Position numbers and translations under genes: made by a program. From assembly GCA_020720405.1 (NCBI GenBank), contig DYOS01000017.1:1-38373 (forward strand): a stretch of DNA of 38,373 bases, in the 5' to 3' direction. This document shows positions 50-4,565 of this stretch, in pieces. This DNA is from Caldithrix sp. (GTDB lineage Bacteria > Calditrichota > Calditrichia > Calditrichales > Calditrichaceae). The notes under the pieces are model-generated. The model saw nothing but the letters and a program-made list of their open reading frames with translations, made no database searches and was not told the origin of the DNA. Each line of letters opens with the position of its first letter. Position 1 is the stretch's first letter.

Positions 50-559
50 TCAGCCCAGGCTGCGCTGCAGGTTGTTCAGATTACGGTCCAGGAAATTTTG
101 CCAGCGCCGGATGCGGAATAGATGCAGATATACTTTGCTGAACAGGAGATTGATTTTTTCAATTGCCATAAACTCAGCCTCGGTGCTGCCATCGGGCAGT
201 TCGGCCAGTTTTAAAACCAGTTCAACCTTGTGACCGGTCGCTGTCAGAGAATCGCCAATTGCCTGAAGCCGCCACAGCATCGCATGGTCATCGGTCAGCA
301 AAAGCACCAGCTGGTCAATATTTAAAGCGCTTATTTTCAAGTGGAAAGATTCGCCATTATTACCTTTTTCCAGCCGGAAATCATTTTGCCACTGATCCCG
401 GTTGTTTTCCTGTCGGATTTGTGCCCACAGAACGGAAGCCGGCGCCTCAATGGTGAGATGCCGGCTGATCAGTAATTCCTCAGGCAGGACAAGGCCGTAG
501 ATAACCAGTGCCGAGAACAGAGGCAGCATGAGCAGAGCAATAATGCGCAAAGTCTTCAT
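50..559 (-). CDS. Membrane-anchored SRPBCC-like protein
   Basis: The protein has 169 residues and one N-terminal hydrophobic segment (about residues 5-25), read as an uncleaved anchor or signal sequence. The rest resembles the SRPBCC/START-like fold: an early strand (HLTIEAPASVLWAQI) is followed by 'RDQW', the layout of polyketide-cyclase/dehydrase-type proteins. No catalytic residue can be assigned, and the ligand is unknown. Its ATG overlaps the TGA stop of the upstream selenoprotein gene by 4 nt (ATGA), so the two are probably translationally coupled. Fold assignment is by pattern only; the ORF itself is secure. Confidence 0.6.
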   Translation of the reverse strand: MKTLRIIALLMLPLFSALVIYGLVLPEELLISRHLTIEAPASVLWAQIRQENNRDQWQNDFRLEKGNNGESFHLKISALNIDQLVLLLTDDHAMLWRLQAIGDSLTATGHKVELVLKLAELPDGSTEAEFMAIEKINLLFSKVYLHLFRIRRWQNFLDRNLNNLQRSLG

Positions 560-1338
560 TGGCTTAAAACCACCTTTATGGTTTGATTCCCGGCATCGGA
601 CGACAAGTGGATAAAATAAACCCCGGAAGCCGCCGGATAATTGTCCTGACTGGTTCCATCCCAGGTCACGGTATGCCGTCCCGCAGATTGGATGCCCTCG
701 CTCAGATGACGAACAAATCTACCCTGTCCGTCAAAGACACGCAACCGGACGGTCGATTGCTCAGCCAGCTCAAACTCAATGCTGATTCGGGAATTAAAGG
801 GATTGGGCCAGGCTTTGTTCAGGCTGAAGCTGCGCAGGGCCGGGGGATTGTCACCAATGGAACTGACCGCGAGCAGGTCATCGATTACCGAGCGGATTTC
901 AGTAGGGTTCACCCCGCTTTTGTAGTAACGGATAATGCCCAGTCCATCGATCACGATGCTGAAATCATTGCTTGAAATGCCGTAAGCATTTTTTGTCGAA
1001 CTGCCCTGCATCAAAGCAGGATATTGAATGCCGGTTGAGGCTTTAAAATTTTGAACCTGCGATTTACTGCCGTTCCAGTGGTCGATACCAAGTGCCACAA
1101 AATTGTCATTGGATTTATAGAAATCGGCGATTTGGGTTTGCGTGCTGTTACCAACAGACAGACAGGTTGGTCAGTTATAGCCAAAGAAAAACAGGTAAAC
1201 TACTTTGCCTCGATAGCTTAGCAATTGATGGCTGAGATTGGATGTATCCTGCAGGGTAAAATCCGGGGCCGGATCGCCCACTGCAACAGCCAGCAAAAAT
1301 GTAAATCCTGCAGCCGCCAGAAGTAATTGCTTTCTCAT
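556..1338 (-). CDS. Exported redoxin-like selenoprotein (UxxC) with C-terminal T9SS-type sorting domain
   Basis: The gene reads as 260 residues if the in-frame TGA at 1171-1173 is selenocysteine (Sec56). The ATG at 1338 has a good Shine-Dalgarno (AGGAGA, 4 nt spacer). Residues 1-20 are a signal peptide. Residues 22-155 form a thioredoxin-fold redoxin domain (DPAPDFTLQD, then VVYLFFFGYN, then U-P-T-C, then ALGIDHWNG). Residues 170-260 form a sorting domain with PNPFNS, TWDGT and ASGVYFIHL. Sec56 and Cys59 occupy the CxxC active-site position, so a thiol/selenol oxidoreductase in the periplasm or at the cell surface is inferred. A paralogue at 4077-4565 has TGA at the same site. The true stop is also TGA, overlapping the next ATG. 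A conventional caller would start this gene near 1098 and lose the active site. The alternative, a nonsense-mutated pseudogene, is unlikely given the paralogue. Confidence 0.87.
1143..1173 (-). promoter_or_regulatory. Sec UGA codon and candidate bacterial SECIS hairpin (gene at 556-1338)
   Basis: The TGA lies at 1171-1173. Counting from the base after it, nucleotides 11-12 and 14-18 pair with 22-28 (TG, a bulged T13, then CTGTT against AACAG-CA), leaving a GGT triloop at 19-21. This gives seven pairs, a single bulged U on the 5' side and G/U at +20/+21. That matches the spacing of the E. coli fdhF element as I recall it. A competing short hairpin (ACCAAC/GTTGGT) can also form. The structure was drawn by hand and no folding energy was calculated. 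Confidence 0.7.
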
Positions 1339-1635: not shown

Positions 1636-3168
1636 CTAAAAATGGCTGATCAGGGTCATTTCCACCCCGTTGAAGGGTTGAACCTCATAACAGATACCGC
1701 CCGTGCAGGCCGTTCCGCCACGCCGTTCACCCCAGAAAAGCCGCAGCTCGTGATTTTCCCCAAGACTACCTTTAATATGAGCGGCCGGCCAGACCGTAAT
1801 AATCCGGTCTTTTAATCCCTCCGTTGAGAGCCGGTCGGTTTCCAAAGGATCGTTGGAAAACTCAGAGCTTACCGAAAAGCTCCAGGCCTGAGAACGGGTA
1901 ACCCCGAAACTGAAGAAGTGATTGGCAGTGTTGTGATTGAGCGAGGAGTTAAACTGGTACAGGCGACGGAATTGCTGCCACTCGTATTGTCCCTGCCACG
2001 ACCAGCCTGCTGTTAAAGCCGCTGTTGTACTCAATCCGGCCGTGAATTGATTTTGTTTCTTCTGGAAAGCCTGATTTTCCTGTAAAAAATCAAAAAAAAG
2101 GCGCATTGTATTGGAATGACCCCAGGGATGTTCAGTCTCGATAAAATATTCTTCAAAACGGGAAGTGACACCTGCTATTTGGCTGACTGCTGTACTGTGG
2201 TTAATCGTGGCCAGATTTTCTCCGGGCAGGGCAAGCAGAGCTTCGGCCTGGAAACCGCGCTCATCAAGTGTTTCAATGACATGCGTAGTGCGATTGAGCA
2301 GGGTATAAGAATGTTCATGAACCAGGTTGGGCGGATCGTTATAATTTAAGGTCAGGTCATGATAGTCTTTATATTCCAGGCTATAGCTAAGCGGACCACG
2401 GCCACCGCTCAGGGCAAAATAAAAACCGTGGCTGCTTTCCCCGGCAAAGTTCCGGGACAAATCTTTAAACCGGAAATCATCGCCGGCATTTTGAACATAT
2501 TCAAGATAAGCATCACCGGCTAAGGGCAGATTAATCCTGGTGAAGAATCCGCCATAGCTTTGTTGTTTTGTCGTCTCCGCTGCATTCAGTACCATTAGAC
2601 CGCCATTCAGGGGAAAATCAAAACTGGTTTCAGCCTGACCGGCTGTTAGTGTAACCGGACGACGGTCGGAGAATTTCTCTCCGGGCGGTACCAGCCGGTT
2701 AAGCGGTCGGCCCCACAAAATTTTTGCCGACCAGTGTTGTTGAAAAAGAGCGATACGTGAACCAAGCAGGTCCTTCTGAAAACCGTATTGGCGACGGCTG
2801 GCCAGGTCCTCATAAACCACACCGGGCAGTTCGTAGGTACGCAACAGCAATCCCTGCCCCAGACTCTCATAAAAATGACCGGCTTCAGCCTGCCATATCT
2901 GGTTTTGATAACCAAGCCGGAACTGGGCCAGGTGGGTGTACTGTTCATCAGCGGCACCAAAGTTGAAATTTTCCAGGCGCAGCTGCCCGTTCCAGTTGCC
3001 AGGTCCCGCCTGAACGGTAAACTGGTTATGCCAGACTGTGCGCGATTTATCAGTGGAGCCGGGCAGATTGCCTAAGAGCAGGCTGCTTTGATTATCGAAA
3101 CGCAACTGAGCCTGAGCCGGCAGTATAAAAAGGAGCAGCCCGGCCGCAATGACAATAAGGAATTTCAT
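1636..3168 (-). CDS. Predicted outer-membrane beta-barrel protein, DUF6029-like
   Basis: The protein has 510 residues with a signal peptide (residues 1-20, ending PAQAQ) and long alternating polar/aromatic stretches typical of beta-barrel strands. It ends in an aromatic residue (MTLISHF), as outer-membrane proteins commonly do. The segment around residues 95-160 (AGHFYESLGQGLLLRTYE, then LLGSRIALF and ILWGRPLN) resembles DUF6029-family proteins of FCB bacteria. Function is unknown. The ATG overlaps the stop of the upstream TlpA-like gene (ATGA), which implies co-translation and a shared extracytoplasmic role. Confidence 0.65.
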   Translation of the reverse strand: MKFLIVIAAGLLLFILPAQAQLRFDNQSSLLLGNLPGSTDKSRTVWHNQFTVQAGPGNWNGQLRLENFNFGAADEQYTHLAQFRLGYQNQIWQAEAGHFYESLGQGLLLRTYELPGVVYEDLASRRQYGFQKDLLGSRIALFQQHWSAKILWGRPLNRLVPPGEKFSDRRPVTLTAGQAETSFDFPLNGGLMVLNAAETTKQQSYGGFFTRINLPLAGDAYLEYVQNAGDDFRFKDLSRNFAGESSHGFYFALSGGRGPLSYSLEYKDYHDLTLNYNDPPNLVHEHSYTLLNRTTHVIETLDERGFQAEALLALPGENLATINHSTAVSQIAGVTSRFEEYFIETEHPWGHSNTMRLFFDFLQENQAFQKKQNQFTAGLSTTAALTAGWSWQGQYEWQQFRRLYQFNSSLNHNTANHFFSFGVTRSQAWSFSVSSEFSNDPLETDRLSTEGLKDRIITVWPAAHIKGSLGENHELRLFWGERRGGTACTGGICYEVQPFNGVEMTLISHF

Positions 3169-3653
3169 TTACTGTCAGTCAATAGTTGATTGAGTTTTGC
3201 ACGTAATAAAATTTCATCACCGGGTGAAAAACCCTGATGACGGTAAACGATTTCCCCGTTGGCATTGATGATCAGCAGGGTTGGAATGGCGGTGATATTC
3301 AGCCGGGAAGCATATTCACTGTTTTCATCCCGCAGCACCGGGTATTCCAGACCATTGGCCAGGACTACCGGTTTAACTTTGGCGCTGTTGCGCGGGCTGT
3401 CGGTACTGACTCCGATAAACCGCACACCCTGTCCGTAAAATTCGGCAGAGAGCCGGTTCAGCTCGGGTAATGCCCTCAGACAGGGTTTGCACCAGGTTGC
3501 CCAGAAATCAATTACCGTCAGCGAGGTGCCGCGCAGCTCATGCACACTATTCCATTGATTATTCAAATCTTTGAGTTTAAAATCGGGCAGGGTAGCCGGA
3601 TATAAAATACCAGCCAGTAGCAGAAGGCTTAATAAAATACGATATCTGCTCAT
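3165..3653 (-). CDS. TlpA/ResA-like exported thioredoxin
   Basis: This 162-residue thioredoxin-fold protein has an N-terminal signal sequence (about residues 1-20). Its canonical active site FWATWCKPC (about residues 50-58) is followed by the cis-Pro loop AIPTLLIINANGEIV (about residues 117-131). It should be a periplasmic disulfide reductase or isomerase of the TlpA/ResA type. It lies between the two Sec-containing redoxins and is the cysteine version of that active site, a useful internal contrast. The start has the Shine-Dalgarno AGGAGA. It is divergent from the gene at 3679 with only 25 nt between the start codons. Confidence 0.88.
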   Translation of the reverse strand: MSRYRILLSLLLLAGILYPATLPDFKLKDLNNQWNSVHELRGTSLTVIDFWATWCKPCLRALPELNRLSAEFYGQGVRFIGVSTDSPRNSAKVKPVVLANGLEYPVLRDENSEYASRLNITAIPTLLIINANGEIVYRHQGFSPGDEILLRAKLNQLLTDSK

Positions 3654-3678: not shown

Positions 3679-4074
3679 ATGGTTGACACAATGACTGAAA
3701 CGGAAACCGGTGTTCGGTTAAAACTGGTCATAGAGCGGATCAAACCATTTCAGCTGCAATTGCAGATTCATCAGATTGGTCGGGATTTATTACTTATCCT
3801 TACAGGCGGTTCAGCCCATATCGGAGCGGTGGCGCTGGGTCAGTCTTATGGCAATGGTACGGCCAAATCGAATGCTTCGGTCATAGGCGCCTTTGGTCAT
3901 AAAGAAGACCAGCTCTCCGGGGAAATTGCCCGCTACGTAAGTAAAAAAACTGGTCAGCGCTGTTCCGTTGTTGCCGGAATTCATTTCGACAACCTGAGCC
4001 GAACCGATATTCTGATGATCCAGAGCGCAGTTCAGGAAATGGTGGAACAGGCTCTGCAAACGATGGCCAGTTAA
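3679..4074 (+). CDS. Small LpdD-like protein (prenylated-flavin chaperone-like domain)
   Basis: The product has 131 residues, no signal peptide and probably acts in the cytosol. The central motif LLLILTGGSAHIGAVALG (about residues 36-53) and the later GHKEDQLS / CSVVAGIHFDNLS resemble the LpdD-like domain, linked to prenylated-FMN-dependent decarboxylases (UbiD/LpdC). No UbiD or UbiX is in the window, so the partner is unknown. The ATG at 3679 follows AGGAAATATA. The gene runs opposite to both neighbours and stops 2 nt before the convergent selenoprotein gene ends. Family assignment is moderate. Confidence 0.6.
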   Translation: MVDTMTETETGVRLKLVIERIKPFQLQLQIHQIGRDLLLILTGGSAHIGAVALGQSYGNGTAKSNASVIGAFGHKEDQLSGEIARYVSKKTGQRCSVVAGIHFDNLSRTDILMIQSAVQEMVEQALQTMAS

Positions 4075-4076
4075 TT

Positions 4077-4565
4077 TTACTCGGCCAGAGCACTCTCAAT
4101 TGCGGCTGTTATTTTGGAAGTCTGAACCCCGTTGCCACGGTATTTGACCTGGCCGTCCTTGCCTAATACAACCGAGTAATCATACGATAAATCAAATTCA
4201 TTCTGCAGATTGCTGCCATTCAACAGCAGGGGATAGGTGATTCCGGTGAAATTCTTGAAATCACGCACCTGTGAGGCAGAACCATCCCAGCAGTCAATGC
4301 CCAGGGCCATGAAGTTTTCATCTTTATATATCTGAAAAATATCGCTTTCCGTAGCCGAACCGGCTGCCTTGCAGGAACTTCAGTTATAACCGAAGAAGAA
4401 AAGATAAACCACCCGGCCTTCATAATCACTCAGTGAAATTGATCCGTGATCAAGGCTGGTTTTTGTAAAGGCAAAACCTGATGTTGGTGTATTTTCCGTA
4501 CTCTTCGGAGTGGTACAGGCCAGAAGGAGTAAAAAAGTTACCGCGAACAGTTTTATATTTTTCAT
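4077..4565 (-). CDS. Redoxin-like selenoprotein (UxxC), predicted lipoprotein
   Basis: The gene is 162 residues when the in-frame TGA at 4380-4382 is read as selenocysteine (Sec62). The ATG at 4565 follows GGGAG. Residues 1-17 are a lipoprotein signal with lipobox LLAC, so the protein is probably lipid-anchored in the periplasm. Thioredoxin-fold landmarks are VVYLFFFGYN, then U-S-S-C (Sec62, Cys65), MALGIDCWDG, ITYPLLLNG and a C-terminal VLGKDGQVKYRG strand. It aligns closely with the redoxin domain of the protein at 556-1338, including the same TGA position, but lacks the sorting domain. It carries an extra Cys where the paralogue has His (GIDC against GIDH). Standard annotation would split it into two fragments at 4380-4565 and 4077-4310. 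Confidence 0.87.
4347..4382 (-). promoter_or_regulatory. Sec UGA codon and candidate bacterial SECIS hairpin (gene at 4077-4565)
   Basis: The TGA lies at 4380-4382. Counting from the next base, nucleotides 15-19 (AGCCG) pair with 23-27 (CGGCT) around a GTT loop at 20-22. A lower stem pairs 3-6 (TTCC) with 30-33 (GGAA) across an internal loop. G and U fall at +20/+21, the same positions as in the hairpin of the paralogue at 1143-1173, although the stem sequences are unrelated. Hand-drawn fold. Confidence 0.65.

Follow-up and report, generated by a model that had tools for sequence, protein, structure and literature searches.

A minus-strand gene in the 38,373-nucleotide stretch of Caldithrix sp. 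DNA analyzed here (the window) very probably encodes an exported selenocysteine (Sec) oxidoreductase, RdxTail, whose in-frame UGA at 1171-1173 is almost certainly decoded as Sec. The initial annotation had proposed this selenoprotein and a TGA-containing paralogue. Our analysis further identifies the paralogue as a lipoprotein and the RdxTail tail as one of T9SS type, and it places the two genes in a conserved TlpA/DUF6029 cassette.

The redoxins RdxTail and RdxLipo

The RdxTail frame starts with an ATG at 1338, preceded 5 nt upstream by AGGAG, ends with a TGA at 556-558 and contains a single internal TGA at 1171-1173. Reading the latter as Sec had been predicted to yield a complete exported redoxin, and we recovered the frame, the domain and the signal-like start. 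As also anticipated, a standard pipeline would truncate the gene near 1098, since the table-11 ORF spans 556-1098 with a GTG start. The features of the two redoxin genes are as follows (hairpin positions are numbered with the T of TGA as nt 1).

50-559, minus: small ORF (orf50), start overlapping the RdxTail stop by 4 bases (ATGA)
556-1338, minus: RdxTail, predicted exported UxxC redoxin with a C-terminal sorting-type tail, 260 residues if TGA 1171-1173 is Sec
568-810, minus: C-terminal Por_Secre_tail/FlgD_ig-type domain of RdxTail, residues 177-257, from profile scores
1145-1157, minus: apical SECIS-type hairpin of RdxTail, 5-bp stem (nt 17-21 with 25-29), loop GGU
1162-1164, minus: Cys59, second UxxC residue, invariant across 22 aligned sequences
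1171-1173, minus: in-frame UGA, predicted Sec56, first residue of U-P-T-C, TGA at the same column in orthologues
1279-1338, minus: signal-peptide-like N terminus of RdxTail (MRKQLLLAAAGFTFLLAVA), judged by eye from the sequence
4077-4565, minus: RdxLipo, paralogous UxxC redoxin with lipobox LLAC (Cys17), without tail
4353-4365, minus: SECIS-type hairpin AGCC-GGUUC-GGCU of RdxLipo, in silico
4380-4382, minus: in-frame UGA, predicted Sec62 of RdxLipo (U-S-S-C), TGA at the RdxTail column

RdxTail matches PF08534 at 49.3 bits (cut-off 26.6) and PF00578 at 44.3 bits (cut-off 26), and the combination of UxxC with either domain above its curated cut-off is that of the Redoxin and Prx-like UxxC selenoproteins. 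The tail scores 31.5 bits with PF18962 (cut-off 27) and 38.1 bits with TIGR04183 (cut-off 23), although the tail type is not unique because the same region matches FlgD_ig at 47.7 bits. A sorting domain above cut-off and a signal peptide (judged by eye) together form the profile of T9SS cargo, and SprA is encoded in the source genome (SprA_N, 142 bits in a profile search). We consider it highly likely that RdxTail is an exported oxidoreductase and, from its tail, probable that it resides at the cell surface. The downstream orf50 is probably translationally coupled to RdxTail; an ORF weakly similar to orf50 also comes after RdxTail in one other genome (G019).

RdxLipo, which terminates with TAA, scores 26.8 bits with PF08534 and 37 bits with PF00578 (cut-offs 26.6 and 26) and is probably an outer-membrane lipoprotein. 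Its TGA falls at the place claimed for it by the initial annotation, within USSC. RdxTail and RdxLipo have in common the stretch G-[KR]-VVYLFFFGYN-U-xx-C around the TGA, with several synonymous codon differences, which indicates that selection preserves the encoded protein both before and after the TGA.

Reading of the in-frame TGA

The source assembly (3.33 Mb, 97% complete) encodes SelA (475 bits), SelB (354 bits), SelD (348 bits) and a tRNA-Sec with anticodon TCA (66.5 bits), each above its curated cut-off; these are the products of selA, selB, selD and selC, whose absence had been named as grounds for abandoning the Sec reading. We interpret the lack of a match to the SelB winged-helix model PF09106 in this genome as a result of model sensitivity, since the full-length SelB model did match. 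SelD has its own in-frame TGA (NCAGU), followed by a GGU-loop hairpin (L019, G000:C198:35865-36803), and Sec-containing SelD is a known form. The genome also holds an AhpC-like peroxiredoxin gene (L149, G000:C222:4291-4689, minus) with an in-frame TGA at the peroxidatic position (F-T-F-V-U) and a CAGC-GGUC-GCUG hairpin after it, a candidate further selenoprotein.

We searched a set of 40 genomes of the window's phylum for homologues. Counting the two window genes, 12 orthologues from 10 genomes have TGA at the exact column (the others in G001, G002, G005, G008, G009, G013, which has two, G021, G031 and G034); the orthologues outside the window are 41-56% identical to the query. TGC or TGT occupies the column in family f2 (G015, G016, G017, G019 and G020) and in G024. 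The homologues thus carry Sec or Cys codons at the first redox residue of U-P-T-C (residue 56), as the initial annotation had placed it, and none refutes the assignment. Judged from the alignment, column-exact TGA in 12 diverged orthologues, with Cys in others, lies far beyond chance.

selA and/or tRNA-Sec are present in 10/10 TGA genomes, including G013, which has two TGA copies and a tRNA-Sec but no selA found in its assembly. Five of the six Cys-only genomes lack both selA and tRNA-Sec; as all five belong to f2, a single clade, Cys together with machinery loss counts as one or few events, not five. The sixth, G024, has both and keeps its Cys copy despite them; this, like the selA-less assembly of G013, counts against the Sec reading. 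In a tree of 36 redoxins, at least four Sec/Cys changes are required compared with 11.3 for shuffled labels, although well-supported branches force only one. One of the TGA orthologues (L029, G002:C296:18399-18803) has an extra in-frame TAA before its tail and is a candidate decayed copy or assembly error.

The family extends to a second phylum, around the Krumholzibacteriia MAG L091, where the redoxin was found in 32/80 genomes. TGA is present in 35 of the 42 redoxin matches, the best 27 included, and lies on the column in all ten of the redoxins that we read. Two genomes of this phylum carry two TGA redoxins side by side (G097:C78:5787-7112 and G050:C27:47535-48556), apparently through a separate duplication. 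Open frames of ~670-735 residues that combine a redoxin domain with a single TGA occur at L036, L038, G031:C19, G034:C51 and G023:C65; in L036 and L038 the TGA lies at FFASWU-PVC and a tail follows, suggesting a second, larger Sec-redoxin architecture.

The initial annotation expected a SECIS element after the UGA, and a GG-loop hairpin of bacterial type is found there. The loop begins with GG at nt 22-23 in the TGA orthologues of the window's phylum. Since protein-level constraint also preserves the Gly codon at the loop, we compared the stems with those of synonymously recoded sequences. With the loop starting at nt 22, the summed stem length of the 12 TGA orthologues was 56, compared with 24.4 +/- 5.3 in recoded sequences (0/1000), whereas the ten Cys orthologues reached 7 compared with 10.1. 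Ten second-phylum TGA copies reached 27 compared with 18.6 +/- 3.4 (22/1000), the hairpin being weaker there. A single mismatch beside the loop gave L021 a value of 0 in this strict test. The tested loop position was fixed after inspecting the hairpins, so that the weight rests on the Cys control and on the second phylum. Fold energy over nt 13-36 differs between TGA and Cys orthologues (P = 6e-5), whereas the two groups were not told apart by a general energy test spanning nt 4-42; only the apical hairpin discriminates. Among seven sequences in the same register, three of the five stem pairs changed on both sides. The data point to this hairpin as a SECIS of bacterial type for UGA 1171-1173.

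An intact conserved frame around the UGA, Cys homologues, SelA, SelB, SelD and tRNA-Sec, and an in-silico SECIS stem-loop are the features by which bacterial selenoproteins are recognized, and RdxTail has all of them. The TGA could instead be a real stop without Sec, marking a pseudogene, a sequencing error or a short regulatory peptide. What speaks for this is only that Sec insertion into RdxTail is predicted from sequence; the conservation of the TGA and its flanking coding sequence in 12 diverged orthologues and in a second phylum, and a Sec machinery encoded in the same genome, make a real stop very improbable, and we rejected the pseudogene and the sequencing error on the column-exact exchange of TGA and Cys. 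It is less probable still that TGA encodes Trp, Gly or Cys throughout this lineage. TGA terminates 10/30 window genes chosen as likely real, RdxTail included, so it is a normal stop in this genome, a result that bears out the exclusion of a general code change by the initial annotation and on which we likewise discarded TGA recoding; moreover, the in-frame TGAs found sit on redox or known Sec positions.

The redoxin cassette and its possible role

RdxLipo and RdxTail flank two further minus-strand genes.

1636-3168, minus: DUF6029 outer-membrane beta-barrel (PF19494, 70.5 bits), from synteny and a beta-barrel model
1690-1707, minus: DUF6029 C-x4-C pair, Cys488-TGGI-Cys493, on the hairpin that precedes the last strand, from conservation and model
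3165-3653, minus: TlpA/ResA-like thiol-disulfide oxidoreductase with WCKPC, from domain scores and synteny, overlapping DUF6029 by 4 nt

The order RdxLipo - TlpA - DUF6029 - RdxTail recurs in G015, G016, G019 and G020; G017 has the same parts split over two contigs, and G013 and G024 have TlpA - DUF6029 - RdxTail. The window shows the full order with a PAC_bac (proteasome-assembling-chaperone-like) gene between RdxLipo and TlpA (3679-4074, plus strand, opposite to the cassette), an insertion that none of the other searched cassettes showed. A Cys version exists in a Draconibacterium MAG (with tail), in Balneola and in a Saprospiraceae MAG, and selA had no match in these three. In the second phylum, TlpA and DUF6029 lie beside the redoxin at 6/8 loci examined. 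At L091:976-3180, a separate locus of the Krumholzibacteriia genome, they adjoin an exported CVPC protein with an FlgD-type tail, which appears to be another redox protein, different from the redoxin, in the same cassette position. By gene order, a cassette of TlpA-like protein, DUF6029 and one or more Sec or Cys redoxins occurs in at least four phyla and appears to be new. Redoxins without DUF6029 nearby in G001, G005, G031 and G034 argue against coupling. Weighing both, we find it fairly likely that RdxTail is functionally coupled to DUF6029 and TlpA.

The DUF6029 model is a barrel of middling confidence (mean pLDDT 72), and its Foldseek matches are outer-membrane barrels. An alignment of eleven DUF6029 proteins has just two conserved cysteines, Cys488 and Cys493, within C-x-x-G-[IVT]-C, and L091 and six more second-phylum copies keep the pair (18/18 inspected proteins). 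The model places the pair between the final two long strands, on a small hairpin. Both ends of outer-membrane barrels lie in the periplasm, and with this topology the Cys488/Cys493 loop would face outward; being the last loop, it is probably extracellular.

Block-mean pLDDT exceeds 90 across residues 21-150 in the model of the RdxTail redoxin domain, which structurally most resembles ResA thiol-disulfide oxidoreductases (TM 0.88 on target). None of 22 aligned redoxins has a Pro at the place of the cis-proline opposite the active site; the TlpA of the cassette keeps it (IPT). In our best reading, RdxTail is a selenol/thiol oxidoreductase with UxxC and a ResA fold that is secreted or held at the surface. 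SelB and tRNA-Sec would decode UGA 1171-1173 as Sec, helped by the GG-loop hairpin just downstream; the T9SS-type tail probably directs the protein to the cell surface by way of the SprA translocon. RdxTail and RdxLipo probably act together with the DUF6029 barrel and the TlpA-like reductase of the periplasm, and their likely job would be to supply disulfides at the outer membrane or beyond it with reducing equivalents.

A more specific proposal is a trans-envelope relay, in which electrons would flow from periplasmic TlpA through a redox-active surface Cys pair of DUF6029 to surface Sec redoxins, with Sec and Cys interchangeable across phyla. If true, the system would be a route for thiol-based reducing power through the outer membrane, but we regard it as speculative and rather unlikely. 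The barrel might instead be only a folding client, with the redoxins and TlpA handling its C488-C493 bond instead of surface substrates. That this is the sole conserved Cys pair in DUF6029 and that the TlpA, DUF6029 and redoxin genes are co-inherited fit such a role, although two or three redoxins are a lot for one disulfide, the tail suggests the surface, not periplasmic folding, and redoxins also occur away from DUF6029; we hold the folding-client explanation to be somewhat unlikely. An envelope peroxidase or detoxification enzyme, peroxiredoxin-like and independent of the barrel, whose Sec reduces peroxide, is distinctly improbable. The PF00578/PF08534 domains and the matches of the redoxin model to AhpE-type 1-Cys peroxiredoxins are compatible with it; the closest structures, however, are ResA oxidoreductases, a distinct AhpC-like protein encoded in this genome carries TGA at its peroxidatic residue, and RdxTail has UxxC in place of the peroxiredoxin motif PxxxTxxC(U), on which we rejected a peroxiredoxin assignment.

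Relation to known systems

UxxC selenoproteins in PF00578 and PF08534 are listed in reviews (PMC13188914, PMC9312934), and a UxxC Sec redoxin as such is an already known kind. RdxTail shares its domain family and the Sec in first position of UxxC with both the Prx-like thiol:disulfide oxidoreductases (PF00578, UxxC/UxxU) and the Redoxin family proteins (PF08534, UxxC); the tail, the lipoprotein partner, the DUF6029/TlpA cassette and the absent cis-proline are not mentioned in the portions of these reviews that describe the families. In the literature searched, which left subscription journals mostly outside, we found neither a description of a tailed, barrel-linked redoxin subfamily without the cis-proline nor selenoproteins as T9SS cargo or in a DUF6029/TlpA context. 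Standard gene callers overlook these redoxins or cut them short, leaving their active sites invisible in annotation. The family is mainly a Sec family in two phyla, and related Bacteroidota and Balneolota cassettes use Cys; such natural Sec/Cys pairs offer a way to study the need for selenium in an exported enzyme.

RdxTail has the fold, the extracytoplasmic location and the CxxC position in common with ResA/TlpA, from which it differs by Sec for Cys and by the missing cis-proline; it scores 46.5 bits with the NCBIfam ResA model (cut-off 170). Etrx2 of Streptococcus pneumoniae is a Cys enzyme of a Gram-positive bacterium. As an exposed lipoprotein thioredoxin (4hqz, 2yp6), it resembles the window's redoxins in fold and as a surface lipoprotein.

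The architecture of RdxTail is shared by HBP35 of Porphyromonas gingivalis, which combines a thioredoxin-type domain with a T9SS C-terminal domain, binds hemin and has an outer-membrane location and thioredoxin activity demonstrated by experiment (PMC2907840, PMC3120885); the excerpts of these reports describe neither a selenoprotein nor a DUF6029 link. DUF6029 (PF19494) barrels have been suggested to be polysaccharide-export porins (PMC9603273), and a casual, non-systematic inspection noticed no polysaccharide-export genes beside DUF6029 in the window. The barrel described here has the same domain and differs in its link to redoxins and its conserved Cys pair, a link that gives an uncharacterized barrel with an invariant Cys pair a testable redox role.
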